NCBI RefSeq assembly: GCF_900606115.1
Contig: NZ_UWPJ01000040.1
Coordinates: 1 to 58,295 of the forward strand
Length of the DNA: 58,295 nt
Direction of reading: 5' to 3'
Origin: Pigmentiphaga humi
GTDB taxonomy: Bacteria > Pseudomonadota > Gammaproteobacteria > Burkholderiales > Burkholderiaceae_B
Positions 15,102-31,542 of this stretch are shown piece by piece (within the stretch, counting starts at the first letter, position 1; each line of letters begins with the position of its first letter). The notes below the pieces were generated by a model. The model saw only the letters and a program-made list of their open reading frames with translations, did no database searches and was not told where the DNA came from. Position numbers and translations under genes: made by a program.

Positions 15102-15366
15102 GGGCTGTAGGATCCCGTGTAGATAGTCCCGGGGAGTTTACCAAACGATGCCGCGGGAAAGCTGCGTAAACCCTTGTTTTCAAGAGGTTTGGCGGCAAAA
15201 AGAGCGGAAAAGGCCGGGCGTTATGAAGGCTTGTTTTAAGCATATTTCCTCAGGCAGGAACGCTTGCCGGATCAAGCTGGTAAACCGCTAAGTCCTACCT
15301 GCGGCGCTGCTCGGCCGCGGCAATTTTCGAACACCCATGCGAATTTTTTTGAAATCCGGTATAGTT

Positions 15367-15456
<90 letters not shown>

Positions 15457-15564
15457 TATGCAGCGTCAGCAAGTGGTTGATTTTCAAGGCTTTTTTATTG
15501 GCCGCCCCTAGCTGACCAGCGAAACTGCTACATGATCGTGCTACATGTTGGAAGACATGCAGCC

Positions 15565-16872: not shown

Positions 16873-16885
16873 TCGCAGAAAAACT

Positions 16886-17683
16886 ATGCCACGCCATTCA
16901 AGAGATAACCAACTTTCCCTCGCAGACTTCTCTTGGCTTAACCTTGCGAATTACGCACTATTAAATAGCGCCTCTATATCGCAATGGGCACAAATCGCAC
17001 ATGACCGAGTTGAGCTGCGTCGATTTGTCGCTTTAGGTGCAGAGCACGGCAAAGGAACCCAAGAGTTTCAATACGCTGAGCAACTCGTTGAAAAAGTAAA
17101 GGCCACCCCTTTACAGCCGCTCGGCTTTAGCAAACGGCGAATTCAACGACATCAGTCTGAACAACCACACATTAGCTTATTAACGGAGGACCGAGCAACA
17201 CTCCTTCAACAGCTTTGCGAAGAAAGCCGATGCTGCGCACAGAATACACGTGGAATTATTGACATCACCCTACGTCAGGGGCCCTGGGGAGGGTTATGGC
17301 AACGGTACGCTCATTTAAGTATTGACCTAAACGCATCTGATATCCAGCTTGAAAAAGATTTTCGAACTTGGCTAAAAAAATGGCGAATCAGCGAGAAACT
17401 TAAAAAGAACAATCAACTCAAGGGCAATGCGCTGGGGAAAAAAACTGCCGGATGGGCAAGACACCTTCTGATCCCTTTCGTCGACATGGAAGCCTTTGCA
17501 AACCTGCACCAAAAATTCATACCCAGAAATGTTTTTCAAGAGCTATTGGGATTTCATCGTCCTTATAAGAAGTGGGAACCATTATCCGATACCCAGCTTG
17601 ATGATTTGCGCAAAGACGCGAAAATAATTTTTACCGGTCCAGGCGTAGATATACTGTTGAATTCAATCATATCTGACGAGTAA
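16886..17683 (+). CDS. Unknown low-GC protein next to integrase
   Basis: 265 residues, soluble, no transmembrane segment or recognised catalytic motif. The C-terminal part (WARHLLIPFVDMEAFANLHQ...LFPD-like ending) and its position directly after an integrase recall the DUF6387 group of integrase-linked proteins, but I cannot confirm this. Codon use is much more AT-rich than the integrase, suggesting separate acquisition. It starts 13 bases after the integrase stop. Function unknown. Confidence 0.6.
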   Translation: MPRHSRDNQLSLADFSWLNLANYALLNSASISQWAQIAHDRVELRRFVALGAEHGKGTQEFQYAEQLVEKVKATPLQPLGFSKRRIQRHQSEQPHISLLTEDRATLLQQLCEESRCCAQNTRGIIDITLRQGPWGGLWQRYAHLSIDLNASDIQLEKDFRTWLKKWRISEKLKKNNQLKGNALGKKTAGWARHLLIPFVDMEAFANLHQKFIPRNVFQELLGFHRPYKKWEPLSDTQLDDLRKDAKIIFTGPGVDILLNSIISDE

Positions 17684-17701
17684 ATTAAACGGGGGAAAAA
17701 T

Positions 17702-17788
17702 ATGAGCCAAAACTCCCCGTGGAATATGACGGACTTTGCATCTGAAAATGCAGGTGTGGCCAAAAATTGCCACCAACCTCTTTTTTAG
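17702..17788 (+). CDS. Possible 28-residue leader peptide
   Basis: Short reading frame (MSQNSPWNMTDFASENAG...) with a strong GGGGGA ribosome site six bases upstream. Its stop codon overlaps the ribosome site region of the HTH gene that starts at 17797, which would allow translational coupling. No homology recognised; it may be a chance frame. Confidence 0.3.
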   Translation: MSQNSPWNMTDFASENAGVAKNCHQPLF

Positions 17789-17796
17789 GAATTTGC

Positions 17797-18147
17797 ATGA
17801 AATTTAGTATCGTCAACAATCTTTCGGGATCCAGCAAGCAGGCATACCGAATCGCAGGATGGCAGGCGACTGACTACGAATTGGCCATCATCCGAACCAA
17901 ACAGAAACACAAGCATGTGAGGCGCTTCCAAGGAGCCGGCAACCTCGGCGTAAGTCCGAGTTCGCTGGCGACGTGGGCTTGCCGCCAGACTCATCCCATC
18001 CCCTACGTCAAGATCGGCAGGGCGGTGAGGTATCGCAAGGCTGACCTCGACGATTTTCTGGAGCGTAACCTCCACCAAGTCGAAGCTGCGTCGATGGCGA
18101 CCTCCGCCAGCGTGTTTGCTTATGCGCAAGGCAAGGGGGCCGTATGA
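17797..18147 (+). CDS. AlpA/excisionase-like helix-turn-helix protein
   Basis: 116 residues. The central part (LGVSPSSLATWACRQTHPIPYVKIGRAVRYRKADLDDFLERN) has the layout of the MerR-like HTH_17/AlpA domain: an HTH, a wing with a V/I-G-R-x-V-R-Y strand, and a final helix. Such proteins act as excisionases or activators of integrase or replication genes in integrative elements. An upstream ATG at 17767 lacks a ribosome site; the ATG at 17797 has AGGA nearby. It overlaps the DUF927 gene by ATGA, so the two are coupled. Confidence 0.75.
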   Translation: MKFSIVNNLSGSSKQAYRIAGWQATDYELAIIRTKQKHKHVRRFQGAGNLGVSPSSLATWACRQTHPIPYVKIGRAVRYRKADLDDFLERNLHQVEAASMATSASVFAYAQGKGAV

Positions 18148-21100
18148 GCGAAATCAATTTTTCCGACGATGACATGAACGAACCTGTCGAGTTCGAACCG
18201 GCGGCGAGCCCCTCCGGACTGCGGCCGGGCAGCGTCGAGTACGAACAAGCCATCAAGCAGAGCGACTTGGAATATGAGCGGTGGTTTACCCGTGACGAGG
18301 CCCGTCGTAACGACCCGAAGAAGTTGAACCATCGAGCGGTGGCCGAGGCCCGCTGGGTGCTGCTTTGGCTCGGCGTCTCGGGGAGTGGTGCAGGCGGGTA
18401 TTTCGAGGGAATCCTGCCCCCGACTGCCGGTTTCGGGCGTATGGCCATGCTGCTCGAACTGCTTGATGGAGGCTGGGAAACGAATCAGGGGAACCCGCGT
18501 GGCCGCCATATGATTTCCCTGGTTGCCCACGTGCGCCAACTCCCCCTGCTAGAGGCGGCTCGACAGCTGAAGAAATTCCTTGCAGCGCTGGATGTCGGCG
18601 AGGACCTGGAGCGTGTTTCGGATATTGGGCTTGATGACGCTGCTGTCGAGTCCGTCGTTTACCCCCTTCCTGCCGATGCCCCGCCGATACCAGCGGTCTT
18701 CGGTTGGCTGGGCGCACCTTCCACCATCTACGAGTACCGCAACGGAGGCGGACAACTGACCGGGTATGTGCTGCGGTTCGAAGATTTTTCTTTGGGGGGC
18801 GGGCGAAGCGGGCTGGGACGACCGAGGCTCATTCCGCTGACACTGTGGACCAAGGCAGACGGCTCGTGGGCGTGGCGAACCAGGTTTAGCCCCGAGGCGT
18901 TAGGTCTATATGGCGCCGACATTCTCGCCATGAATTCGGAAGCCCGGATACTCATCGTTCCAGACGAGCGGTCTGCGGACCTTCTGAACTTCGGAGGTCT
19001 TGCCAACCGGTCAGGGTTCGTAGCCGTTGGCGTGCGCCAGGCGGCTTCAGAGGGAATCGATTGGCAGCGCCTAAGCGCACAGCAAACGGCGGATGTCCTC
19101 GCCCCGCTAGGGACCGACGGAGATGCGTACTTTGAACAGATGGCGGCCTGCCTATGGGCTCGAAATCCTGCCATTCAGGTATTTCGTTCCAACGTCAAGA
19201 TTCTCTCGACGCCGGGAAAAACATCTTATGGTTCTGTGCCATCGGGAGAGAGGTGGCTATTTAGCGACTACGCCAACTGGAGTAGTGAGGCAAGATATGA
19301 GATCGAGTTAATGCTGTCACCGCCGGTGACGCCGGGTCGGCCTATTGAAATCCGATGCCCCGACTACGGCCCGCCTACGGAACACTTTACCGCCGAAGAA
19401 CTTGGACTTGGCAGTCAGAAGCCGAACGATTTCGCCCATGACGACTTTTTCGTCAATAGCCAAGGGGTGTTCGTACGGCGGAACATCAAGGGTGAATTGA
19501 TCGAGGTATGGATTTCGTCCCGTATCGACGTCATTGCCCTGGCTCGGAGTGCCGAGAGCGAGGAATGGGGTTCCCTGATCCGGTTCCAGGATCGGGATGG
19601 CGTATGGCACCAGTGGTGCATTCCGTGGAATCTGCTTGGAGGAGACCCGTCCGGTTTCTGCAAAACGTTGATGGGCATGGGCGCTATCGTATCGGCCCAA
19701 AAGCGTGATCGCGACGACTTGGCGCGTTACTTGATGTCCGTCGAACCGGGGTCCCGATGCCTCGCAGTGTCGAAGCCGGGCTGGCATGACAACAGATTCG
19801 TCCTGCCTGACGGTACGGGTGCGGGAGTAGGGAATGGCGAGACGATAGCATTGCAGATGTCGGACCCCCTGCTTGGTGGTTTCGTAAAAGCTCGTGGCAC
19901 CCTCGCCGATTGGCAGCGTGAAGTCGCGGCGAAGTGCCGGGGGAATTCTCGGCTACAGATTGCCATGAGCGTAGCGTTCACCGGCCCGGTCTTGCACTGG
20001 CTCGGTGAGGAAAGCGGCGGTTTTCATTTTCGGGGCAACAGCTCGATCGGTAAGACGACGATTCTGCTGGTTGCAAGCAGTGTGTGGGGCAGGCCAACCA
20101 AGTTCATCCGACCTTGGCGGGCGACTGCCAATGGTCTTGAGGCGGTTGCCGTGCAACATCACGACATGCTGCTGGTCTTGGACGAAATGAGCCAGATCAG
20201 CCCGCACGAGGTCGGGCAAGCCGTATACATGCTATCGAACTCGCAGGGAAAATCCCGAGCCACTCAAACAGGCGCCGCTCGGGCCGCGTCGGACTGGCGC
20301 TTGATGTTCTTGTCGTCGGGCGAGATCGGATTGAGGGCGCACATCGAAAGTGGTGGCGAGCGCCCCATGGCTGGCCAGGAAACCCGGGTCGTGGACATTG
20401 AGGCGGACGCGGGAGGTGGACACGGCATCTACGAGGCCCTTCATGGAGCCAGCAATGGCGCCGAGTTCTCGTTGATGCTGAAGGATGCGGCAGAGCGGTT
20501 TCACGGCATTGCCGGTCGTACCTGGGCGGGGGTTCTCGCTGATCCTGATCGGCGGGCAAGGATACTGGATTCCATCAAGGCTCACACCGACGAATTTGTG
20601 CGCAACAACACCCCGCACGGGGCGGATGGTCAAGTACAGCGGGTTGCCCGACGCTTTGGGCTGATTGCAGCCGTAGGCGAGGTGTGCCAGCAAGTCGGGA
20701 TCCTTCCATGGGACGAAGGTGAAGCAACACGGGCTGCTCGGATCGGCTTCACCGACTGGTTGAACCGTCGAGGCGGCTCTGGCAGCCTAGAGTCCGATCA
20801 GATTCTCGAGCAGGTGCGGCGCTTTTTCGAATTGCACGGAGAAGCCAGGTTCACGCCCATGGGGCACCCCGGCATAGGCGGTGGCGAAGAGTGCGTGGAC
20901 GACAATCATCGCATGACGCTCCAACGTGCCGGCTTCCGGCAGATGAACGACGACGGCCAGACAGACTATTACGTGCTGCCCGAGGCGTTCAAGCGGGATG
21001 TGTGCAGTGGCCGAGAATTGCGCCAAGTGATCACGGCGCTGCGGAACGCCGGGCACCTCGTGATAGCCAACGACGGTAAAGCTCAGGTCGCCAAGCGGTT

Positions 21101-21158
21101 GCCGGGAATGGGCGTGTGCAAGGTCTACCACATCCGTTCCACGATTTTTGGAGGCTAG
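18144..21158 (+). CDS. DUF927-domain primase/helicase-like replication protein
   Basis: 1004 residues. The C-terminal half holds a P-loop ATPase: Walker A GNSSIGKTT (about residue 632), Walker B LLVLDEM (about 677), and a LMFLSSGEIGL sensor-like strand, all in the style of DUF927 proteins found in integrative elements and phages. The N-terminal half has an ILIVPDERSADLL strand (about 270) that could be a degenerate TOPRIM motif. A role in starting element replication is inferred. Translation is coupled to the HTH gene. The stop codon lies a few bases from the truncated end of an IS remnant, so the C-terminus may have been altered. Confidence 0.8.
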   Translation: MSEINFSDDDMNEPVEFEPAASPSGLRPGSVEYEQAIKQSDLEYERWFTRDEARRNDPKKLNHRAVAEARWVLLWLGVSGSGAGGYFEGILPPTAGFGRMAMLLELLDGGWETNQGNPRGRHMISLVAHVRQLPLLEAARQLKKFLAALDVGEDLERVSDIGLDDAAVESVVYPLPADAPPIPAVFGWLGAPSTIYEYRNGGGQLTGYVLRFEDFSLGGGRSGLGRPRLIPLTLWTKADGSWAWRTRFSPEALGLYGADILAMNSEARILIVPDERSADLLNFGGLANRSGFVAVGVRQAASEGIDWQRLSAQQTADVLAPLGTDGDAYFEQMAACLWARNPAIQVFRSNVKILSTPGKTSYGSVPSGERWLFSDYANWSSEARYEIELMLSPPVTPGRPIEIRCPDYGPPTEHFTAEELGLGSQKPNDFAHDDFFVNSQGVFVRRNIKGELIEVWISSRIDVIALARSAESEEWGSLIRFQDRDGVWHQWCIPWNLLGGDPSGFCKTLMGMGAIVSAQKRDRDDLARYLMSVEPGSRCLAVSKPGWHDNRFVLPDGTGAGVGNGETIALQMSDPLLGGFVKARGTLADWQREVAAKCRGNSRLQIAMSVAFTGPVLHWLGEESGGFHFRGNSSIGKTTILLVASSVWGRPTKFIRPWRATANGLEAVAVQHHDMLLVLDEMSQISPHEVGQAVYMLSNSQGKSRATQTGAARAASDWRLMFLSSGEIGLRAHIESGGERPMAGQETRVVDIEADAGGGHGIYEALHGASNGAEFSLMLKDAAERFHGIAGRTWAGVLADPDRRARILDSIKAHTDEFVRNNTPHGADGQVQRVARRFGLIAAVGEVCQQVGILPWDEGEATRAARIGFTDWLNRRGGSGSLESDQILEQVRRFFELHGEARFTPMGHPGIGGGEECVDDNHRMTLQRAGFRQMNDDGQTDYYVLPEAFKRDVCSGRELRQVITALRNAGHLVIANDGKAQVAKRLPGMGVCKVYHIRSTIFGG

Positions 21159-21159
21159 C

Positions 21160-22170
21160 AGAGAGCAGCTTGGCGGCCGCCTCGTCGCTGGGGAAGTGGT
21201 CCCGCGTTTTGACCGCCCGGCGCAACTGCGCATTGATGCTCTCGATAGCGTTGGTGGTGTAAATCACCCTGCGGATGGCTGGCGGGAACATAAAGAATGG
21301 GATCACTCGGTCCCAGGCCGGCGCCAGGCGTCCACGATCGGCGAGTAGCGTTGCCTCCACGGCCCCTGTTCGAACTCTGCCGGCCGCCAGAGCGGCCTCC
21401 ATGGTAGGCGCGGTGTAAATGGGCTTGAGCGCCGCCGCCACCGTGTGCCGATCCTTCCAACTGGCGTAGTCCCCCAGAACTCGGCGCCCTCGGTCTGTTC
21501 GATCCACAGGCCCAGGATGTCCCGGGTGCCGTCCGGCAGCGCTCCCAGCGCCAGGTAGTTGGCCTTGTCGCTGACTCTTGACCCGCAGCGCATCGAAGAA
21601 CAGGACCGGGTACAGCGCCTCCAGCGGACGGCTCTGCCAGGCGATCGTCTCGGCCATGACCTCGTCGGTGGCTGAGCTGATGAAGTCCGGCGAGACCACG
21701 GTGCCGTAGCTCTTGGCCAGGAACGCCTGGATCTCGCGCACGCACGTGCCCCGGGCATACACGGCGATGATCCGCTCGTCGAACCCCGTGAAGCGTCGCT
21801 CGTGCTTGGGAATCAGGATCGGATCGAAGCTGCCGTCCCGGTCTCGGGGAATGTCCACCCGCAAAGGGCAGTCGTCGGTGAGCACCGTCTTGCGGCTCTT
21901 GCCATTGCGCTGGTCGCAGCCTCGGGGCGCTCCTGCCCCGGGCATAGTGATGCCCAAGCTCGGCGCCCAGGGCTCGCTCGATCAGCGCCTTCTTGAACGC
22001 CATCGACAGGTCCTGCACCGCCTCGGCGGTCATCGGGCCTTTAACGAATTGATCGACCAAGTCCGCCGAGATCGACGGCAGCTCTGGCACGGGAAGTTTC
22101 TTCTTTGCGGCCATACATGTGGCCCACGACCGGTATGTTCGGCCTCACTCACAAAATTTATGACACTCCC
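21160..22170 (-). mobile_element. Decayed IS256-family insertion sequence
   Basis: Remnant of an IS256-type element. The outer end at about 22170 shows the usual terminal sequence (GGGAGTGTCATAAATTTTGT on the minus strand). The other end stops inside the transposase reading frame, next to the DUF927 stop codon, so the far terminal repeat and the last part of the element are gone. Confidence 0.8.
21165..22114 (-). pseudogene. IS256-family transposase, frameshifted and truncated
   Basis: Transposase pieces lie in all three minus frames in the right order. The start is MAAKKKLPVPELPSIS, followed by GAELGHH, then (frame shift near 21955) RNGKSRKTVLTDD and DRDGSFDPILIPKHERRF, VLFFDALRV, then (another frame) YLALGALPDGTRDILGLW, and then DYASWKDRHTVAAALKPIY and RVIYTTNAIESINAQLRR. 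About 50 residues between EFWG and DYASWKD are missing, and the part after HFPSDEAAAKLL is lost. At least four frame changes make this inactive. Confidence 0.88.
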
Positions 22171-22189
22171 AGCGCCGGTGCATATGTAT

Positions 22190-22525
22190 GTAACCCCGCT
22201 GGCTTCGGGGTAACGCTCCGGGTAACACGTGGACTTCGTCGAAAGCCTTGCCATTGCGGGACTTTTCGGGGGTGTTACCCCTGTTACCCCCGTAACCCTA
22301 CCCAGCAAGGGCAAGCCGTCAGCAGCCGGAATGGAAGGCAAGGGTTTCAGAAATCCGCTTGGATTTTCCTGCAATCGTGGGGAGCCCTCCCTAGACCAGA
22401 GGCCTTTCTTTTTCTGGGTTACACAGGTTACAGGGTTACAAAGCAAGAAAAGTCTAGGCGCTGTAGGGAACTATCGGCCCCTCGGCCTGTAACCCCCAGC
22501 GGCCTCGGCCAGGTTACGGGGTAAC
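22190..22525. repeat. GTTAC/GTAAC array, iteron-like
   Basis: Twelve copies of GTTAC or its complement GTAAC, usually extended to GTTACCCC or GGGGTAAC, in about 335 bases: 22190, 22209, 22222, 22274, 22283, 22292, 22418, 22427, 22435, 22489, 22513 and 22521 (approximate starts of the units). Fewer than one would be expected by chance. Several pairs form inverted arrangements and three are packed in 22274-22298. The array lies downstream of the primase/helicase-like gene, beyond the IS remnant, with no convincing gene in it. A replication origin with protein-binding iterons is the leading guess. Confidence 0.7.
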
Positions 22526-22568
22526 GCGAAAAGGGCGTCCGTGGGGGCGTTCAATAGCCATAACAGCC

Positions 22569-23117
22569 TTAGTGGGCCGCCACCATAACCGTGACTGCAT
22601 GGATCAACAAACCCATCAGCCCACCGACGAAGGTGCCGTTGAGGCGGATGTATTGCAGGTCGGGGCCGATATTCAGCTCAAGCTTCTCGACGATTTCGTG
22701 GTCCTTCCACTCCCGCATCTTGCTGGAGATGAAGGCACCGATCTTGGGACGCACCGATTCCAAGGCAGTCGGGACGGTCTCCACGATATAGCCGTCGATG
22801 CTCTCCCTCAGCGGCTCGTTCTTCAGCAACTCCTGCCCCAGTTCGATCACTAATTCGGTGACCTTGGCACGAATACTGGACGCATCGCTGCTCAGGTCGG
22901 CTTTCAGCCAAGCGTGCACGTCCTGCCAAAGGCCATCCACGTAGCTGGCAAGTTCCCGATTTTCAGCGAACTCCTGCTGGTAGTGTTCGATTTTGCTCCG
23001 CAACCCCGGATCGCTTTGCAATTGTCCGATCAAGCCCTCCACCGCCTGGTGGAACCTGGACCGCAACGGATGTTGTGGATCCGTGTCGATTTCGGTGACC
23101 AGCTCCCCCGACCAAGC
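22569..23117 (-). pseudogene. DUF445 membrane protein, C-terminal fragment
   Basis: The last 180 or so residues match the C-terminal half of DUF445 proteins (usually about 400 residues): DPQHPLRSRF, ELLKNEPLRESIDGYI, EKLELNIGPDLQYIRLNGTFVGGLMGLL, ending in a hydrophobic anchor. The N-terminal membrane half is absent. The open frame runs on to 23177, but the extra residues overlap another small frame and look unrelated. This is probably a remnant left by recombination. Confidence 0.7.
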
Positions 23118-23141
23118 AAAAAACGGGCTAGTCAGACAGAA

Positions 23142-23294
23142 ATGCCATCCGTCACGCTTACTGTCGAAGAAAGTCAACTGGTGCGCAGGTTGCGCTCTCT
23201 TCCTGAGGCACGTCGTCGACTGGTTCTTGAACTGGTTGAACAGTTCGTGCTAGATGAGGAAGTATGGATACCCAAAGCGCACTCAAACCGCTAA
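23142..23294 (+). CDS. Possible 50-residue amphipathic protein
   Basis: Short frame beginning MPSVTLTVEESQLVRRLRSLPEARRRLVLELVEQF, with heptad-like Leu/Val spacing and many charged residues, suggesting a helical regulatory peptide. There is no strong ribosome site (ACAGAA upstream). It starts just past the presumed break of the DUF445 fragment. No family recognised. Confidence 0.35.
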   Translation: MPSVTLTVEESQLVRRLRSLPEARRRLVLELVEQFVLDEEVWIPKAHSNR

Positions 23295-23466
23295 TTATTG
23301 CTGGGGCCAATTTCTCAGCCTGCCCGACAGATTAGATTAAGTAAGGCGGTGAGCCCCGTTATCTACCTGCATTAATTAACTGTGTTAGTAAGTATCGTAG
23401 CTCTTTGATTCGCAGAAAAGTGAGCACTGGATGTAAACTTAGCTTAGCGCGAGAGAGAATAATAAT

Positions 23467-24732
23467 TTACAAGTAAGACTCAATTTCACTTTTTACTCGT
23501 AAATTCAAAGATATTCCAGCATTGCTGTGTATTAGGTTTTTTTCCACAAGAGCATCTAGAGACAAATCGAAAGTTAATACACTTCGGCAATAATGGTTCT
23601 TAAGCGTTTCCCGTGAGACGGTTTTTCCTCCCCAAAAATGCTTCCTGTAGAGGACAAGTAGAATTTGCCTGGCCCCTACATCAAGATCAATTTTTCGTCT
23701 AAAACCTACGATAGAGGTATCTAGAGACTCGAGTATGGTCTCGTAAGCCTCAATCCCAAAGTAATGGCTATGCGTTTCTCGAACAGTTGCCACCTCTGAC
23801 GAACCGATTAGAACTACTTCAAAGCCTTCGTTGGGAGGAAATGCCCGTTCGGTTTGAATGTATGAGGCTACAGCCTCGTCAGGACTGCGGCCCACGATAT
23901 CCCAACTAACGAATTGCCCCGTATTCCAGTCAAACACTATGATCCAGTTATTCAGACCGTACCCACCTCGGCTCTCCTTCTCTGTAAGAGTACGAATAAC
24001 CCCTTCGTTGATGAAACTATCGAGAATTTTTCCTAGAGGTGATGCTTCAATAATTTTTTCGCAAGTTGTACGCAGCGCGTCGATTTCAAGCCGATGATCC
24101 GGGCTTGCTGTTCTTCCGGCCTCTATTTCGTAAAACGCATCCGAAAGCAACTGGAAATAGCGCAGGACAGCAGGATCCCCCTCTTCTTCTTTCAGGTGAT
24201 ATCCATAGATCACAGAGGTGCGTTCGATGCTTTCAGCCCAATAATGCTGAATTCGACTTCGGATTTGTAGTTCAAGGGAAACTCCGTCCCGAGATAAAAT
24301 CAGGTGAAGAGCCCTATACCCTGTCGTATCACGTCCTTTCTCTCGATAGTCTGTCTCTCTCTCAATTTTAAAGCCCTTCTGACAACCGAGTTGACCTTCC
24401 AGGTAACGATAGAGTCGGTCTACGTCAGCATTCGTCGGAACAATAATTCGTAGTCCACCAATATCTTGAAGCTGGCTCAAGCGTACTTTGAGTCTCTTTA
24501 GTTTTCGAATAATTTGAGGTTTTCGCTTTAGGCGCTGCGCTATATAGTATGGACGTCTATAGCCATTGAGCCAGCCCTGAATTTCTAGGGTCGTTTCTGA
24601 CAAAGGTTGAAGATGATTCTTTCGATACTCATCAAAGACATCTTCAAGTTCAATATACTCGTCATCACTGCGATATATGCTACGAGCTATTGCGTTCCCG
24701 GCACGGTCAATTCTAGATTTAGACATTTGCAT
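23467..24732 (-). CDS. RelA/SpoT-domain nucleotide synthetase-like protein
   Basis: 421 residues. Residues about 45-185 form a RelA_SpoT synthetase domain with the catalytic pattern kept: R67-L-K69 in IAQRLKRK, Asp90 in LSQLQDIGGLRIIV, Tyr139/His142 in GYRALHLIL and Glu154 in LELQIRS. No HD hydrolase, TGS or ACT domain is present. The C-terminal 230 residues (LNNWIIVFDWNTGQFVSWD, YRKHFWGGKTVSRETL) are not recognised. Such stand-alone synthetases make (p)ppGpp or pyrophosphorylate other targets and include toxin and anti-phage effectors. It lies 63 bases after the DUF3800 gene, in the same low-GC block and probably the same operon. Confidence 0.82.
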   Translation of the reverse strand: MQMSKSRIDRAGNAIARSIYRSDDEYIELEDVFDEYRKNHLQPLSETTLEIQGWLNGYRRPYYIAQRLKRKPQIIRKLKRLKVRLSQLQDIGGLRIIVPTNADVDRLYRYLEGQLGCQKGFKIERETDYREKGRDTTGYRALHLILSRDGVSLELQIRSRIQHYWAESIERTSVIYGYHLKEEEGDPAVLRYFQLLSDAFYEIEAGRTASPDHRLEIDALRTTCEKIIEASPLGKILDSFINEGVIRTLTEKESRGGYGLNNWIIVFDWNTGQFVSWDIVGRSPDEAVASYIQTERAFPPNEGFEVVLIGSSEVATVRETHSHYFGIEAYETILESLDTSIVGFRRKIDLDVGARQILLVLYRKHFWGGKTVSRETLKNHYCRSVLTFDLSLDALVEKNLIHSNAGISLNLRVKSEIESYL

Positions 24733-24795
24733 AGGTTCTATGCCTTTCTTTAGTACTGAGGAGGCTGGAATTTAGCGACGATGGCAACACGCTCC

Positions 24796-26079
24796 TTATA
24801 CTTTTAGCATTACGGCTGCATCGAGATCGGTCTTTTCTCTGTCAAAATCAAGCCCAAGACGGCGAATTATTAAGTCGGCGATTTCATCCTTATGATTCCT
24901 CTCTCCCGAGAAGTTCAGTCGACGATTAACCGCCCCAGCAATAACGTCCGAAATTTGCACAAACGAACTGTTTCTAGAAGAGATGCTGGCAACTCGTTCA
25001 AGTGTTATGTCTTCCCCATACTTAGATGCCAGCTCACCACGCAACCGTTCTTTCATATCTCTCAAGGTAAACCTATCTAGAGACTGCTCTTCGTCTAGTG
25101 TGACACTTACTCGACGTGGCAACCCTATACGCCCACTGTCAATTTCATGCTTAATTCCCTCGATCAACATTAGCTCATGCAGGCGTTGAACAGCCTGCTC
25201 AGTAGAGCGCTTTAGATTGATGCGTGAGATTGCTATTGCTTTAAAGCTTAGGAATTCTCGGTGGGACTGTATGATGTCCAGATATTTATCAATTGAGTCA
25301 AAGTCTCCCTTACCAAAGCGTGAGAAATGAACCTCTTTGTTTGAAAAATTAGAAGTGCTTTTCCACTCATTAATTGCCCTATCTACCGTATATACAGCTC
25401 GGCCATTCAAAGCCCATACAGACCCAACGATAAGAAATGAATCAGTCTTTCCTGCTTCATCCGAGAAAACCTGTACGGTTTGTATAGGTGGAGCGTCTTT
25501 CAGAACAGCTTCTCGAACTTCACTTTCTCGGTCACGCCGTTTTGCCCTTACCTTTCCGTCGGCTTGAAACAACTCGTATTCATTTTGAATTTTCGCTCGT
25601 GCCCTCACAATGACGGGGATGCGCTCCAGCTTGAATAGATCCTCCGGTTTAATTCCATGCTCATTGTAGATATCAGGCTGAAAAATCTCCCAATATTTTA
25701 GAGTCAACGCCACGTCGCTATTTCGCGTTAACGGATAGAGGTTCAACACAAAAGCAACCCGAGTCCTTTGGCTGGAAAAATCCCCTCCATCTAGTGCAGC
25801 TATCAGTTGTCGTTTTTCTTTCTCGAGCTTCTGTACGCGTTCAGAGATTACAGCGCCATGCAACGCGGCTACCCTATCAGCGTTCCCCCCGCTATCTTCA
25901 TGCAGACCGTCGTTGGTCGACTCTGGCACATTCTCTAGTGTTAGGCCATTCACATTGGCTCCCATAGAACAAAAGGCATACCAAGATAGCTCATAGTCGC
26001 ACCTTTTGCATCTGCAATTTCTACGGATGGCAGCCTGCGGGGATAACCCTAATTTCAAGATACGCTTTCCCAGGCTCAA
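24796..26079 (-). CDS. DUF3800-domain protein
   Basis: 427 residues. The C-terminal half matches DUF3800, a family with an RNase H-like fold and acidic site: VQVFSDEAGKTDSFLIVGSVW (Asp207, Glu208) near the start and FVQISDVIAGAVNRR (Asp378) near the end. The N-terminal 200 residues include a Cys cluster (C22, C24, C27, C37), possibly metal-binding, and a charged coiled-coil-like stretch (about 78-95). The frame opens with TTG at 26079; an ATG at 25965 would lose the Cys cluster and has no better ribosome site. DUF3800 proteins occur in defence islands; nuclease activity is inferred. Confidence 0.75.
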   Translation of the reverse strand: MSLGKRILKLGLSPQAAIRRNCRCKRCDYELSWYAFCSMGANVNGLTLENVPESTNDGLHEDSGGNADRVAALHGAVISERVQKLEKEKRQLIAALDGGDFSSQRTRVAFVLNLYPLTRNSDVALTLKYWEIFQPDIYNEHGIKPEDLFKLERIPVIVRARAKIQNEYELFQADGKVRAKRRDRESEVREAVLKDAPPIQTVQVFSDEAGKTDSFLIVGSVWALNGRAVYTVDRAINEWKSTSNFSNKEVHFSRFGKGDFDSIDKYLDIIQSHREFLSFKAIAISRINLKRSTEQAVQRLHELMLIEGIKHEIDSGRIGLPRRVSVTLDEEQSLDRFTLRDMKERLRGELASKYGEDITLERVASISSRNSSFVQISDVIAGAVNRRLNFSGERNHKDEIADLIIRRLGLDFDREKTDLDAAVMLKV

Positions 26080-26284
26080 TATTAGTGATTACTTGCCAAC
26101 ATCCTTTGTTGGTATGTTTTTCATAGATTAATTTTTCATATACTTCTTGACGCTAAGAAGAGCTGGGCAATTTAATGAGTGTGCAGTTAATGCGTGCGCT
26201 CTATGGTCACTAGATCACTATAGGTAATCTTATTTGGTATAAGAAATGGGGGGAGATATTTTCCCTTCTGACTAGGAGAACCTC
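26080..26284. promoter_or_regulatory. Divergent low-GC control region
   Basis: Separates the minus-strand DUF3800-RelA/SpoT pair from plus-strand element genes. It holds an inverted repeat CTTCTT-N6-AAGAAG (26143-26160) and a partial palindrome with direct TCACTA repeats (26201-26223, arms CTATGGT and ACTATAG). Both are plausible operator sites. A TATAAG -10-like box is near 26237. Confidence 0.4.
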
Positions 26285-26428
26285 ATGCGCACCACCACGG
26301 CTCGCATTTTTCTGGCCCTGCTGCTCGAAGCGGCAGGCGCTATCGTCCAGTACCTCAAGCACTACGTCGAAACGATCCTACGCCGCTTCGATGACCCGCT
26401 CTGGGAAAACCATCCCAAGTTCGTCTAG
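26285..26428 (+). CDS. Small 47-residue element protein
   Basis: Frame MRTTTARIFLALLLEAAGAI...DPLWENHPKFV with a good AGGAGA ribosome site seven bases upstream. The N-terminal half is a hydrophobic or amphipathic helix and the C-terminal half is polar. GC content and codon use match the following DUF932 module rather than the low-GC cassette. Function unknown. Confidence 0.6.
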   Translation: MRTTTARIFLALLLEAAGAIVQYLKHYVETILRRFDDPLWENHPKFV

Positions 26429-26530
26429 CTACTTCCAATCGGCCATTCGGCCAGCTTCCTCCTTCCTTCCATAGTCCCCAGCCTGGCAGTTACGCCCCAG
26501 GCCGAAGGCGTTCGCCTATTCGGAGTCCCT

Positions 26531-27493
26531 ATGCACCTCGTTCAAAGCATGGCCTATACCGGCCCGCAGCCCTGGCACGGCCTGGGCAATCCTCTTCAAC
26601 CCCGCCAACCGCTCGAAGTCTGGGCCAGGCAAGCGGGTATGGACTGGCAAATCGATCAGGCCGAAGTCCGGTATGCCGCTGGCGATCATGATGCCGATCC
26701 GGTCCATGCCTACCCCGAGCAAAAGGTCCTGTATCGCAGCGATACCCGAGCCCCTTTGTCGGTCGTGTCCAACCGCTACCAAGTCGTGCAGCCCCGTGAA
26801 GTCTTGGAGTTCTATCGGGATCTGACCGAGGTTGGCGGCTACGAGCTGGAAACGGCAGGCGTCCTAAAAGGCGGCAAGAAGTTCTGGGCGCTTGCTCGCA
26901 CCGGCCAGTCCACCCAGCTCCGGGGCAACGACGAAGTCAATGGCTATTTGCTCTTGGCAACGGCGTGCGATGGCACCCTGGCCACGACCGCTCAATTCAC
27001 CTCGGTGCGGGTCGTCTGCAACAACACCTTGGCGATTGCCCTGGGAGCAAGCCAGGGAGCGATCAAGGTTCCCCATCGCAGCCAGTTCGATCCCCAGGCC
27101 GTCAAGCGCCAGCTTGGTATCGCCATTTCTTCGTGGGATGCGTTCATGAGCCGGATCAAGACCCTGGCCGACTGCAAGGTCTCACCTTCCATGGCGCAAA
27201 CCTACTATCGGCGGGTTTTAGCCCGTCCAGAAGCTTCGCCCATGCCTGCCCCTTCCGCCCGTCCTGATCGGACAGCTGAGGCCCTCTACGGTCTCTTCAC
27301 GGGCAAGGGCATGGGAGCGGATCTGCCTTCGGCCTCGGGGACGGCCTGGGGATTGCTCAATGCCGTCACGCAATTTGTCGATCACGAGCGACGAGCCCGC
27401 AGTCTGGACCATCGTCTGGATGCTGCCTGGTTCGGAACGGGAGCCACCCTCAAGCAACGAGCCTGGGAGGAGGCCATGCAGCTTGTCGCATGA
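26531..27493 (+). CDS. DUF932 phage/plasmid-like protein
   Basis: 320 residues matching the DUF932 (phage/plasmid-related TIGR03299) family: PWHGLGNPL near the N-terminus, VVSNRYQVVQPREVLEFY, and TSVRVVCNNTLAIAL. These proteins are common in mobile elements next to recombination genes; their biochemical role is not established. It is the first large gene of a plus-strand operon-like run reaching 29897. Confidence 0.88.
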   Translation: MHLVQSMAYTGPQPWHGLGNPLQPRQPLEVWARQAGMDWQIDQAEVRYAAGDHDADPVHAYPEQKVLYRSDTRAPLSVVSNRYQVVQPREVLEFYRDLTEVGGYELETAGVLKGGKKFWALARTGQSTQLRGNDEVNGYLLLATACDGTLATTAQFTSVRVVCNNTLAIALGASQGAIKVPHRSQFDPQAVKRQLGIAISSWDAFMSRIKTLADCKVSPSMAQTYYRRVLARPEASPMPAPSARPDRTAEALYGLFTGKGMGADLPSASGTAWGLLNAVTQFVDHERRARSLDHRLDAAWFGTGATLKQRAWEEAMQLVA

Positions 27494-27526
27494 CTGCGGG
27501 ACTTTCGCACACCCCTGGAGTTCAAC

Positions 27527-27781
27527 ATGTTCTTCCCACGTGACCTACCCACCTCGTTTGGAGATTGGCTAGAGCAGCAGCAGGAAAGCGGTGCGCCCGG
27601 CACGGATATCTCGGCAGCCACCACGGTTGATCAGCGTCTCCGTGCTGCCTTGGTGATCTGCACGGCGCTGTTCGCCTCGCCTTCGGAGAAGACTGTGGTT
27701 GCCGTCTTCGAACGCATCAACGCCTTGGCGGAAGCGCAGCGTATTCCCAAGCCTTCACGCTCCGCAGCGCCGTTGGCCTAG
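27527..27781 (+). CDS. Hypothetical 84-residue protein
   Basis: Short soluble protein (MFFPRDLPTSFGDWLEQQQESG... RIPKPSRSAAPLA) between the DUF932 and YqaJ genes on the same strand, 33 bases after DUF932. No motif recognised. Its position in a conserved-looking module supports it as real. Confidence 0.6.
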   Translation: MFFPRDLPTSFGDWLEQQQESGAPGTDISAATTVDQRLRAALVICTALFASPSEKTVVAVFERINALAEAQRIPKPSRSAAPLA

Positions 27782-27857
27782 CAGTTTCTCCTTCTTCTTC
27801 AACACGCCCGGTCGGACTTCGGTTCGCCGGGCTTTTTCATTTTCTGGAGTCCATGAC

Positions 27858-28859
27858 ATGAGAAGTTCTCTTGAATCGGTTCGCCCGGCCAGGCCTCGTC
27901 CGGCCTTGCGTCTGGTCGATACCCGCCGCATCGAGCGCGACGATTGGCTGGAGGTTCGCAAAGCGGGCATAGGCGGATCCGATGCCGCAGCCGCCGTTGG
28001 CCTGAATCCCTACAAGAGCGCGTTGGCGCTTTGGCTCGAAAAGACCGGCCGGGATGCGAATCTGGAAAAACCCGATCCGAAGGACACCACACAGCCGGTG
28101 TTCTGGGGTTCGTTGTTGGAGCCCATCGTGGCTGCCGCCTATACCCAGCAAACGGGCAGGCGGGTGCGCAAGGTCAACGCCGTGCTCCAGCACCCCACCG
28201 TGCCATTCATGCTCGCCAATCTGGACCGGGAAGTGGTCGGCGTTCCCGGGGTGCAGATTCTGGAGTGCAAAACGGCGGGAGAGTTCGGAGCCCGGCTGTG
28301 GCGCAATGGGGTACCCGAGTATGTGCAGCTCCAGGTTCAGCATCAATTGGCCGTGACGGGCAAGCAAGCGGCAGACGTTGCCGTGCTGCTGTGCGGTCAG
28401 AAGCTGGAGGTCTTTCGCATCCATCGTGACGACGAGTTGATCGCCCGGCTGATCGAATTGGAAGCGCAGTTCTGGGCCTATGTGACCAGCGACACGCCTC
28501 CCCCCGCCGATGGATCTGACTCAGCGGAAAAAGCGCTGCGATGCCTCTATCCGCAGGATACCGGTACCACGATCGATTTCAGCCATGACCGCATCCTCTC
28601 TGCGGCTTTCGCTGACCTGCAATCGGTCCGTCAGAAGATCGACGATCTGGCCGGCGAAGAAGCCAAGCTCAAGCAACGTTTACAGCAGGCCATGGGCGGT
28701 GCCACCAAAGCGATCTTCGAGACTGGAGAGATTTCCTGGAAACGCAGCAAGGACAGCAGGAGCATCGACCTCGAACGCATTCTTGGTGACCACCCTGCAT
28801 TGCGGGAACAGTACGCCATGACCAAACCCGGTTCACGCCGATTCACCATCCTGGCTTGA
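27858..28859 (+). CDS. YqaJ-type viral recombinase / lambda-exonuclease-like nuclease
   Basis: 333 residues of the PD-(D/E)XK YqaJ family, a 5'-3' exonuclease used in phage-type single-strand annealing recombination. Motifs: GIGGSDAAAAVGLNPYKS near residue 35, an early glutamate in FWGSLLEPIVAAAY, the catalytic aspartate in MLANLDREVVG and E-x-K in ILECKTAGE, then YVQLQVQHQLAVTG. A C-terminal coiled-coil-like helix (DLAGEEAKLKQRLQQAM) follows. The ATG at 27858 directly precedes the conserved region; an open frame upstream to 27699 overlaps the preceding gene. Confidence 0.9.
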   Translation: MRSSLESVRPARPRPALRLVDTRRIERDDWLEVRKAGIGGSDAAAAVGLNPYKSALALWLEKTGRDANLEKPDPKDTTQPVFWGSLLEPIVAAAYTQQTGRRVRKVNAVLQHPTVPFMLANLDREVVGVPGVQILECKTAGEFGARLWRNGVPEYVQLQVQHQLAVTGKQAADVAVLLCGQKLEVFRIHRDDELIARLIELEAQFWAYVTSDTPPPADGSDSAEKALRCLYPQDTGTTIDFSHDRILSAAFADLQSVRQKIDDLAGEEAKLKQRLQQAMGGATKAIFETGEISWKRSKDSRSIDLERILGDHPALREQYAMTKPGSRRFTILA

Positions 28860-28872
28860 AGGAGCAAGAACC

Positions 28873-29769
28873 ATGCTGAAAGGTTTGGCTATTACGCCTC
28901 CCGTCATCGGCCGTATCTCGATCGGTCGGGTCGTGGAGAAGAACGGCAAGCGCCTGCCGGAAAAGGACGATCAGTTCACCGTGACCACGCAGGTCCAGAA
29001 CCATGACGGCTGGGTGCTTCACCCCCTGGACGACACCTTGCGTAAGTCCTGCGTGGGCAAGCTGCGCTCGATTCCGGTGTGGATGTTGTTCGACGATCCC
29101 GACTTGAACCTGCGGGCCGAATATGCGCTCTTCGACCGGGAAACCGGCAGGCCGCAATGCGTTGGCAACGGCGAGACATGCCGCCGGGCCAGTGCGGAAG
29201 GCATCGAGACGCAACCCTGCCTCTCGCCCGATCTCTGCGCCTTGGGACGTAAGGCCGGGTGCAAGCCCTACGGTCGTCTCTACGTCATGCTGGGCGAGGA
29301 GGAGATGGCGGCGTTTGTGCTTCGAACAACGTCCTTCAACTCGATTCGGACGCTGGCCGCCAGGCTACGTTACTTCCATGCGGTCTCGGGCGGCGCACTC
29401 GCGACCATGCCGCTCGAATTGAAGCTGCGGGGCAAGTCCACGACGCAGAGCTACCGGACGCCCATCTACTACGTGGACCTGGTGCTGAAGTCAGGCGAAA
29501 CGTTGGAGAACGCGGTTGCGCAAGCCCACGAAACGAAGCGGCAGCGAATCGCAGCCGGGGTTGATCAAGCGGCGCTCGATCAAGCGGCTCGGGATGGCTT
29601 CAGTAACGGGGCATTCGAAGAGTCCGCTGAGGATGTGCCGGCGGTTGTCGAAGAGTTCTACCCCGATTCAGCATCCCACGAAGTCAGTCCAGGAAGCATG
29701 GCTGTCAACGAACTGCTGCGGGACAAGCTAACGCGGCGAACCCAGGTTGAACGGGGCTCGACATCATGA
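28873..29769 (+). CDS. Cys-rich metal-binding protein, Gp3-like
   Basis: 298 residues. A Cys cluster (C149-type region: RPQCVGNGETC, QPCLSPDLC, RKAGCKPYGRLYVML) is followed by an LRTTSFNSIRTLAARL block and a LELKLRGKSTTQSY strand. In databases such ICE proteins carry the vague name 'hydrolase or metal-binding protein'. From memory the layout resembles actinobacterial Gp3-like recombination directionality factors; that is inference. It follows the YqaJ gene by 13 bases with a GGAG ribosome site. Confidence 0.75.
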   Translation: MLKGLAITPPVIGRISIGRVVEKNGKRLPEKDDQFTVTTQVQNHDGWVLHPLDDTLRKSCVGKLRSIPVWMLFDDPDLNLRAEYALFDRETGRPQCVGNGETCRRASAEGIETQPCLSPDLCALGRKAGCKPYGRLYVMLGEEEMAAFVLRTTSFNSIRTLAARLRYFHAVSGGALATMPLELKLRGKSTTQSYRTPIYYVDLVLKSGETLENAVAQAHETKRQRIAAGVDQAALDQAARDGFSNGAFEESAEDVPAVVEEFYPDSASHEVSPGSMAVNELLRDKLTRRTQVERGSTS

Positions 29770-29897
29770 AGGCCCTGATCGTGAACATGGTTGTTGCCGT
29801 GCTGTTGCTGCTGGCTGCGCCGATCTTCTTGATCTGGAGTGGTGTCATGCTCCTGCTCGTGGTCTGGGCTGTGTTGGCCAAGTTGTTCGGACGCTGA
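29766..29897 (+). CDS. Small 43-residue membrane protein
   Basis: Starts with an ATGA overlap with the preceding stop, so translation is coupled. The sequence MKALIVNMVVAVLLLLAAPIFL... is almost wholly hydrophobic with one or two membrane helices and a basic end (KLFGR). An intrinsic terminator begins 12 bases after its stop. Function unknown. Confidence 0.6.
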   Translation: MKALIVNMVVAVLLLLAAPIFLIWSGVMLLLVVWAVLAKLFGR

Positions 29898-29908
29898 GGC
29901 GTTCCTTG

Positions 29909-29932
29909 CCCCGCTTGTGACGGGGTTTTTTT
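29909..29932 (+). terminator. Intrinsic terminator of the DUF932-YqaJ module
   Basis: Stem CCCCG / CGGGG with a 7-base loop followed by seven T residues, 12 bases after the last gene of the element. Confidence 0.85.
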
Positions 29933-30028
29933 ACCCTCGGCCAATAGGGATCTCTCTGGTTCCAGCCTTTTTAAATTGCTACACTGACAAGCAACATAGT
30001 TCCTAACGAATTTACGGCACGATCCGTC

Positions 30029-30118
<90 letters not shown>

Positions 30119-30136
30119 GAATCTCAGTACGAAAAG

Positions 30137-30167
30137 CGCAAAAACCGACCATCAGGTCGGTTTTTGC
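30137..30167 (+). terminator. Intrinsic terminator after tRNA-Ala
   Basis: Perfect stem AAAAACCGACC / GGTCGGTTTTT with a 4-base loop and T-run, about 20 bases after the right tRNA. It is probably the native terminator of the tRNA gene before the element inserted. Confidence 0.85.
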
Positions 30168-30327
30168 ATTTCAGATCAGCCGCGGGCCAGGCCGACTCAT
30201 CAGCCGATCCCGAATGGCGCGGGCAAGGCCATTGGCATCGATCCGTGGAAGAGCGCATGAGGCCGGGGCACTCGTGAGCGTCGCGCACGCTTCGCTGTAA
30301 CATGACGCACTCTCCCCCAAGCTCCAG

Positions 30328-31542
30328 ATGCCCCTCTCCACCCCGCACATCGTCGTCGACACCCAGACCATGCTTGCCGAACGCCTCAGCGGCATCGGCC
30401 ATTATGGGCTGGGCATCGCGCAGGCGATGGACCGGCTGGCCGCGGGCGGGCTGTTTTCCTATAGCCTGATCGCGCCTCGCAAGCTGTATGGGCGGGTGCC
30501 GGCGCTGCCGCTGCGCGCTTGCCGGGATGCCGTGCCCGTGGGCCGGCTGGCGGAGAAGCTGACCCACCAGATATTGAAGCGGCGGCTGGGCCTGTCGATC
30601 GACTGGCTGCTGCCCGAGGGCGCGTATTATTTTCCCGCCTTCAAGGTCCTGCCGATGAAGGCGCGCCCGACGAGCGTGGTCATCCACGACCTGGCCCACC
30701 TCGACGTTCCCGAGTGCGTCGAAGCCGGCAACGTCGCGTTCCTGGACTATGCGCTGCCCCGTTCGGTCGCGCAGGCGCGCAGCCTGATCGCCGTATCCGA
30801 GTTCACCCGGCAGCGCATCGTCCATCATTTCCAGGTGGATCCGGCGCGGATCCACGTCGCGCCTCCCGCGGTGGACCGCCGGGTCTACCGCCCTGTCGAT
30901 CCCGTGCAGGCCCGCGCGACGCGCGAGCGCTACGGGGTGGACTGCGAGGCCTATTTCCTGAGCGTCGCCACGCTGGAGCCGCGCAAGAACCTGCTGAACC
31001 TGATCGACGCCTTCGCGGCGCTGCCGCCGGCCGAGCGACGCCATTACGCGCTGGTGCTGATCGGCGCCAAGGGCTGGGACAACGGCGCGACGCAGGCGCG
31101 CATCGAGCAGGCCAGAAAGGCTGGCGCGCGTATCGTGCAGCCGTCGGGCTTCGTGGCCGACGAGGACATGGCGGCTTTTTACACGGGCGCGCAGGCGCTG
31201 GCCTTCGTGCCGCTGTACGAGGGGTTCGGCATGCCGCCGCTCGAGGCCTATGCCTGCGGCACGCCGGTTCTTGCCAGCCGGGTCGCGTCGGTGCCCGAAG
31301 CGGCGGGGGAACCGGCCCGCTACGTCGACGATCCCCGCGACGTCGCCGCGATCCGGGACGGCCTGCTGGCGTTGGCCGCACTCGGCCAGGCCGGGCGGCA
31401 ATCGCTGCAACCGGCGATGCAGCGGCACCTGGAACGGTTCGACTGGATGCACAGCGGCGCGGCGACGGTCTCCGCGATCACCGGCATTCCCGCCTCCGCC
31501 TTGCTGGGCAGCGTGGATTATCCGCCGCCCGCGGCCGCCTGA
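30328..31542 (+). CDS. Glycosyltransferase family 4 protein
   Basis: 404 residues with the GT-B fold of GT4 enzymes. The N-terminal domain has VVDTQTMLAERLSGIGHYG and VVIHDLAH. The C-terminal nucleotide-sugar-binding domain has LSVATLEPRKNLLNLIDAF and the E-x7-E motif in VPLYEGFGMPPLEAYACGTPV. It probably transfers a sugar from an NDP or GDP donor to a surface glycan; no other polysaccharide genes are adjacent, so the product is unknown. Confidence 0.88.
   Translation: MPLSTPHIVVDTQTMLAERLSGIGHYGLGIAQAMDRLAAGGLFSYSLIAPRKLYGRVPALPLRACRDAVPVGRLAEKLTHQILKRRLGLSIDWLLPEGAYYFPAFKVLPMKARPTSVVIHDLAHLDVPECVEAGNVAFLDYALPRSVAQARSLIAVSEFTRQRIVHHFQVDPARIHVAPPAVDRRVYRPVDPVQARATRERYGVDCEAYFLSVATLEPRKNLLNLIDAFAALPPAERRHYALVLIGAKGWDNGATQARIEQARKAGARIVQPSGFVADEDMAAFYTGAQALAFVPLYEGFGMPPLEAYACGTPVLASRVASVPEAAGEPARYVDDPRDVAAIRDGLLALAALGQAGRQSLQPAMQRHLERFDWMHSGAATVSAITGIPASALLGSVDYPPPAAA

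Follow-up and report, generated by a model that had tools for sequence, protein, structure and literature searches.

A probable CapRel-family fused toxin-antitoxin gene with a C-terminal extension on a tRNA-Ala integrative element of Pigmentiphaga humi

In a 58,295-nt stretch of DNA from Pigmentiphaga humi (positions 1–58,295 of contig NZ_UWPJ01000040.1, assembly GCF_900606115.1; analyzed as a whole and called the window below), an integrative element of approximately 14.7 kb (15364–30118) carries a gene encoding a 421-aa protein with a RelA/SpoT domain (23467–24732, minus strand). The gene probably belongs to the CapRel family of fused toxin-antitoxins, stands alone and serves as anti-phage cargo of the tRNA-Ala element. 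The basis of this reading is homology over residues 1–328, a retained active site, an altered motif, a clade-specific extension, the lack of a recurrent partner and a mobile setting. An initial annotation of the same DNA had called a stand-alone RelA/SpoT-domain open reading frame (ORF) here and likened it to the effectors of toxSAS and CapRel systems carried as element cargo; the ORF is indeed in place, and both the CapRel homology and the element setting bear out the likeness. The same annotation had joined the gene to a neighboring DUF3800 gene as a sensor-effector pair. The pairing that drew interest does not hold, and the extended CapRel clade is the remaining point of interest. This kind of toxin-antitoxin is already known as CapRel; what is new is the ~95-residue extension, the altered motif and the separate clade.

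The sole Pfam domain above cut-off in the 421-aa protein is RelA_SpoT (E 3.4e-16, residues 66–176). The PADLOC model PDC-S33 matches residues 2–326 (E 3e-55), and the top PDB matches are 7ztb and 9erv (E 3e-10 over residues 2–326 by phmmer, and E 1.4e-19 over residues 2–204 by profile search), of which 7ZTB is CapRel-SJ46 (PMC11782079). PDC-S33 also matches CapRel-SJ46 of phage SJ46 (E 7e-87), so this candidate model appears to be the CapRel family, and software that lists it as a candidate without a name could label it CapRel; a literature search, thin on subscription papers and therefore a weak negative, found nothing on PDC-S33. Using hhalign, we matched a profile of 22 relatives to one of seven compact CapRels with a probability of 100 (E 2.4e-40) over residues 1–328. 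To see whether the synthetase domain alone carried this match, residues 205–330 were compared separately with the CapRel antitoxin part. This match had a probability of 72.8 (56 columns), whereas none of 30 column-permuted profiles exceeded 0.7 and the reversed profile reached 0.1. By sequence-profile homology, the chain is thus predicted to include a C-terminal pseudo-zinc-finger antitoxin domain. Along the minus strand, the toxSYNTH (pyrophosphokinase) domain (residues 1–204, 24121–24732), assigned by Pfam match and alignment, is followed by the region homologous to the CapRel anchor and pseudo-zinc-finger antitoxin domain (residues 205–328, 23749–24120). This region holds THSHYFG (residues 320–326, 23755–23775), the altered counterpart of the CapRel YXXY neutralization motif, and behind it comes a C-terminal extension (residues 329–421, 23470–23748) that is absent from CapRel-SJ46. 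The annotation had described the C-terminal 230 residues as unrecognized; up to residue 328 they are now matched to the CapRel chain, and the last ~95 lie beyond that match.

Relatives with this extension are sparse and spread across several phyla. Scanning 84,980 genomes (one for each species) by pattern gave 22 loci, and one plasmid and four viral contigs brought the set to 27; because some of the genome records are metagenome bins, the host names of some loci are weak. Two of the 27 copies are broken, L005 (6001–7275) being split into two open frames and L022 (4508–6883) interrupted by ~1.1 kb of other sequence; both were left out of the main alignments and the tree, and the partial L019 was left out of the tree. 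In a tree of synthetase domains, the 25 extended rows group together as a single clade with a long stem (support 100/98), separate from the 13 compact CapRel-type rows and the two housekeeping RSH domains included. Both RSH domains come from the P. humi genome itself and lie outside the CapRel group, with very long branches. The tree tool warns of long branches, including those of the RSH rows and the extended-clade stem, and we therefore claim only the clade itself from this tree.

At the neutralization motif, 25/25 extended rows read T-H-[S/R]-H-Y-F, compared with A-[Y/F]-x-x-Y-F in CapRel; in the 421-aa protein, THSHYF stands for the AYPNYF of CapRel-SJ46. His321 thus takes the place of the first motif tyrosine and the second (Y324) is kept, again in 25/25 rows, so that a strict YXXY is not present. 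H321 and H323 of the motif and H380 of the tail are invariant in the clade. Compact relatives are also loose at the motif, some with F first or F fourth, and Y or F stands at the first aromatic place in 60 of 61 distinct compact viral CapRels (from the best 80 of 123 scan loci; 54 of these motifs were found by the search pattern and six YPN variants by eye, and L092, a truncated protein of 293 aa, lacks the motif region). A 303-aa CapRel-type protein without the motif region is also encoded on a 5.9-kb Proteus plasmid with qnrD1 (L068, 757–1668).

After the motif, the extended rows continue for 95–100 residues (25/25) vs 15–56 residues in the 54 compact proteins measured, and the chain end soon after the motif that is seen in compact CapRels is therefore not found in them. 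The short tail is a trait of the compact members, and the accessible parts of the sources do not state it as defining; as homology covers the whole CapRel chain, we take the C-terminal extension to be a variant feature. The extension gave no match to the CapRel antitoxin part in hhalign (0.1) and no convincing one in Pfam or PDB. The best Pfam families were DUF1803 (E 4e-4, 5/26 members) and DUF6432 (E 9e-4, 4/26), with FeoC (E 0.003, 3/26) and HTH_36 (E 0.036, 2/26) behind them, and PDB gave transglycosylases (E 0.008–0.018) and two transcriptional regulators (E 0.09–0.1). Because of these weak matches, and because a stretch of variable length in the extension alignment lies where a wing would be, the extension is possibly a winged helix.

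In CapRel, the trigger binds to the antitoxin region, which is the variable part (PMC9712102, PMC13423816). In the extended clade this region is more conserved than in compact CapRels at matched toxin divergence: identity is 0.579 (97 pairs) vs 0.398 (35 pairs) at a toxin-domain identity of 0.60–0.65, and 0.606 (109 pairs) vs 0.377 (19 pairs) at 0.65–0.70, and the same direction is found in 6/6 toxin-identity bands between 0.55 and 0.90 that hold both kinds, although the pairs are not independent of one another (L068 and L073 were excluded from the pairwise table). Of the three domains, the extension varies most within the clade: its identity averages 0.48 in the toxin bands 0.60–0.65 and 0.65–0.70, and in 260 of 300 pairs its core shows less similarity than the antitoxin core does. 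On these comparisons, sensing may have shifted from the antitoxin region to the extension; relaxed constraint on the extension would give the same pattern. A more specific version, which we hold tentatively and regard as rather unlikely, would be that the antitoxin domain is a fixed lock with a His-for-Tyr latch and that sensing lies with the faster-changing, winged-helix-like extension, which might recognize nucleic acid, or a phage protein bound to it, in place of a capsid protein. If true, the clade would represent toxSAS proteins to which an exchangeable sensor has been added as a third module. How the trigger of CapRel, a one-protein bacterial immune receptor that has been studied in detail, is determined is a subject of active research, and this clade, in which the same toxin is combined with a different latch motif and a further domain, offers a natural experiment on sensor gain or shift.

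The catalytic residues that the initial annotation had read as kept, R67, K69, D90, Y139 and E154, do align with R79, K81, D111, Y155 and E180 of CapRel-SJ46. R67, K69, R80, R95, Y139, E154 and Q156 are the same in CapRel-SJ46 and 25/25 extended rows, and D90 is kept in 24/25, with E in L020. The FaRel2 counterparts of the kept residues bind ATP, magnesium and the acceptor base (PMC11782079), and with its active-site residues kept the 421-aa enzyme is predicted to be active. Two long RSH proteins elsewhere in the same genome (frames of 761 and 776 aa) share 7/8 aligned active-site residues with it, so these residues do not reveal the substrate. A housekeeping alarmone synthetase, named in the annotation as what would undo its reading, was considered and rejected: the genome has these two other long RSH proteins, and no close full-length homologue was found in the 60 other relatives searched, including 10 congeners, so that the gene does not behave as a core gene. 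Some match was found in 24 of the 60, namely four confirmed compact CapRel-type proteins (G005, G012, G059, G060; G005 is a congener), the rest being mostly long RSH proteins by frame length.

Taken as a CapRel-type protein, the gene product probably works as follows. In the resting state, the antitoxin region (~205–328) would fold back, with the THSHYF loop closing off the ATP site in the way that YXXY does in CapRel-SJ46. Binding of a phage product to the C-terminal half would lift autoinhibition and open the ATP pocket, upon which the N-terminal toxSYNTH domain would most likely move pyrophosphate from ATP onto tRNAs at their 3'-CCA end; with the tRNA 3' ends pyrophosphorylated, translation and phage growth would stop. 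The ~95-residue C-terminal domain would either help sensing, by reading the trigger, or hold the off state as a latch, and some part in one of the two is most likely. Autoinhibition by THSHYF, the phage trigger, the role of the extension and tRNA as the substrate are all things that we infer by analogy with characterized systems.

One alternative is that the reaction product is an alarmone ((p)ppGpp or (pp)pApp) and tRNA is left unmodified, any defense or toxicity then arising through nucleotide signaling or ATP depletion. The residues shared with the long RSH proteins of the same genome would fit this, as would the stretch before the G-loop tyrosine, which is [TV]DYRxxGR[DE]xxGYR in the extended clade and differs from that of the compact CapRels, where PK is found in 6/7. 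We nevertheless think it unlikely, given that the nearest characterized relative, CapRel-SJ46, pyrophosphorylates tRNA (PMC9712102), and that blocking of the ATP (donor) site by antitoxins of the pseudo-zinc-finger (pZFD) type, a region kept here, goes with tRNA-modifying toxSAS (PMC11782079). Less probable still, and in our view quite improbable, is that the gene is mainly an addiction module that stabilizes the element or excludes competitors, with phage defense secondary or absent. Its place in an integrative element is compatible with such a role, and so are the relatives on one plasmid and in four viral contigs; against it, a fused toxin-antitoxin would leave no free labile antitoxin whose loss kills segregants, and the characterized CapRels act in phage defense (PMC9712102, PMC11578894, PMC13423816).

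The remaining alternative is the one first proposed, a co-transcribed two-gene cassette in which the RelA/SpoT and DUF3800 genes act as sensor and effector or as toxin and antitoxin. The arrangement that suggested it is real: both genes lie on the minus strand, 63 bases apart (24733–24795), and both are low in GC content (0.442 for RelA/SpoT and 0.456 for DUF3800, vs 0.60–0.62 in the integrase, DUF927, DUF932, YqaJ and Gp3-like genes of the element and 0.68 in the window outside it). The low-GC stretch of the window covers both, and a pattern scan of 22400–26600, which yielded no more sites than chance, found the minus strand free of promoter-like sites and the gap between the genes free of terminator-like ones on that strand. 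Rare adjacency of homologues, which the annotation had itself named as speaking against a pair, is what the co-occurrence search found. By tblastn and profile search, a DUF3800 relative was present at 0/27 RelA/SpoT loci (L019, with 123 bases upstream only, cannot count), and a CapRel-type gene at 0/20 DUF3800 loci. No other recurrent partner emerged, since ORF clustering of the 22 genome loci and the window gave no neighbor family common to more than two loci; of the five later loci outside this clustering, L026 and L062 share filamentous-phage genes. The RelA/SpoT gene is at least 0.08 lower in GC than its flanks at 26/27 loci (L016 is equal), and the low-GC stretch around it has a median reach of 50 nt on the upstream and 0 nt on the downstream side (26 loci each), with at least 300 nt in L002, L006, L018, L020, L021 and L022. 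Because this stretch ends close to the gene in most relatives, being the RelA/SpoT gene alone, the gene seems to travel mostly by itself. CapRel-SJ46, moreover, works as a one-gene system (PMC9712102), the published CapRel proteins having effector, inhibitor and sensor in one chain, and the literature search, with the same weakness as above, found nothing linking CapRel with DUF3800. With no co-occurrence and mostly single-gene GC islands, we rejected the cassette and consider it extremely unlikely; the DUF3800 gene is probably not part of the RelA/SpoT system and a separate passenger. A likely false lead is thereby removed, as RelA/SpoT and DUF3800 are not a recurrent pair.

The setting of the relatives is mobile and partly of the defense type. 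In L026 (4986–6269) and L062 (5001–6272), Rep_trans and Zot-type genes are found beside the extended CapRel-type genes, which suggests carriage by filamentous phages; the CapRel-type genes lie ~100 bases downstream of the Zot-type genes. The relative in L063 has a tail gene nearby, and that in L064 is accompanied by capsid and portal genes. Among the matches listed, PADLOC reported GajB, DRT helicase, PDC-S02, PtuA, LeoA/LeoBC and restriction-modification in neighboring ORFs. As the scan covered, without a control set, 139 of 257 listed ORFs and the first 25 families of each list, we do not claim enrichment.

Several observations weigh against the CapRel-type defense reading. The GajB, DRT-helicase and PDC-S02 matches may all be one UvrD-type helicase, since Pfam shows one, and most Pfam families among the scanned neighbor ORFs (among the matches listed) are not defense genes. 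In the window itself, the low-GC stretch extends 1500 nt into the DUF3800 gene. Identity of the 421-aa protein to CapRel-SJ46 is only ~22–25%, and with His for the first motif tyrosine in every extended row, the published neutralization mechanism may not carry over.

As for the DUF3800 gene, its full frame from TTG spans 24796–26079 on the minus strand (Pfam DUF3800, E 2.1e-7). The frame is open, and D207, E208, E249, H251, D329 and D378 are invariant in 17/17 aligned rows. The initial annotation had noted an N-terminal Cys cluster (residues 22–37 from the TTG). The 20 relatives that we fetched align from residue 47 at the earliest, and 17 of them from residue 79 or later, and a GTG at codon 43 is preceded by GGGAG at a fitting distance; for these reasons the cluster probably lies outside the real protein, which from this likelier GTG start would be an RNase H-like protein of 385 aa (24796–25953) and probably an unrelated passenger. 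The PADLOC candidate PDC-M04A matches residues 201–414 (E 2.8e-12), and no PDC-M04 partner component was matched in the 10 other element ORFs scanned. A DUF3800-associated structured RNA was also considered and rejected, as no Rfam RNA of the DUF3800-type families was found in window positions 15000–31000 up to E 10, and none reached the gathering threshold in the 15 DUF3800 loci (of 20) that were scanned; CRISPR matches among the element ORFs scanned did not go beyond a chance-level Cas6 (E 0.03). The 20 relatives come from 15 viral contigs, four plasmids and one genome, a split that reflects the collections searched, and up to four of the 20 loci have other neighbors in common. DUF3800 relatives were found in none of the 60 other relatives searched and in one of 368 other genomes of the class; a viral-contig scan gave 14 further ones (L048–L061). 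They are possibly a phage cargo family of their own.

The element is bounded by 93-nt direct repeats holding tRNA-Ala(CGC), the left of which (15364–15456, plus strand) is the attachment site, and the right of which (30026–30118, plus strand) is 99% identical to it. This tRNA gene is thus present in two copies here; 7/10 congeners have a single copy at 99–100% identity, and the best matches in the other three are 86–89%. The integrative element of the initial annotation is thereby confirmed. On the plus strand, the backbone consists of the integrase (15532–16872; phrog_1, E 3.9e-29), a helix-turn-helix (HTH) protein that is excisionase-like below threshold (17767–18147; HTH_17 E 2.5e-7, TIGR01764 excise E 0.0056, under its cut-off), a DUF927/primase-helicase-like protein with Pfam and PHROGs-type profile matches (18144–21158) and, beyond the cargo, a DUF932 protein (26531–27493) and a recombinase of the YqaJ/lambda-exonuclease family (27699–28859), both assigned by profile match, and a Gp3-like protein resembling recombination directionality factors (28873–29769; PF18897, E 6e-43). 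The order DUF932-YqaJ-Gp3 is the same in two viral contigs (L074 and L075). Adjoining the integrase, a 265-aa ORF (16886–17683, plus strand; GC 0.454) without PADLOC or PHROGs match could be a further cargo gene. Between the DUF927 gene and the cargo, minus-strand ORFs overlapping in two frames (21031–22114) look like a frameshifted transposase remnant, presumably of the IS256 family. A 202-aa protein (22569–23177, minus strand) matches the C-terminal half of DUF445 only (profile positions 194–367 of 368) and is 28% identical to a 433-aa frame on another contig; it is probably a fragment.

Compared with known systems, the neighboring gene resembles DUF3800 proteins generally, which have an RNase H fold (PMC10910872), in its invariant acidic residues. 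The 421-aa protein shares its RelA_SpoT domain and catalytic residues with small alarmone synthetases and long RelA/SpoT proteins, but lacks the long RSH architecture of the latter. FaRel2:ATfaRel2 is a tRNA-targeting toxSAS whose ATP site is neutralized by YXXY stacking on two arginines, the counterparts of R67 and R95 here; it consists of two genes with the antitoxin in trans, in contrast to the one chain of the 421-aa protein (PMC11782079). In ATfaRel2, Y54A (the second Tyr) abolishes neutralization and Y51A (the first) weakens it (PMC11782079), and the extended clade keeps the counterpart of the essential second Tyr, with His for the first. CapRel-Ebc, again a fused toxin-antitoxin, is 70% identical to CapRel-SJ46 and triggered by Gp0.4 with FtsZ, the trigger being predicted to contact the antitoxin region, the final helix of the anchor included; the accessible text of that paper mentions no extra C-terminal domain of the kind present in the 421-aa protein (PMC13423816). 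The closest likeness is to CapRel-SJ46 (7ztb, 9erv; PMC9712102, PMC11578894), a fused toxin-antitoxin activated by phage proteins (PMC9712102). Both have the order of toxSYNTH, anchor, pseudo-zinc-finger antitoxin and motif (over residues 1–328 in the 421-aa protein), the same active-site residues, one gene on a mobile element and a match to the same PADLOC model. The 421-aa protein differs from it in sequence (the low identity given above), in the extra ~95-aa C-terminal domain, in THSHYF for AYPNYF and, with its clade, in the stronger conservation of the antitoxin region at matched toxin divergence.

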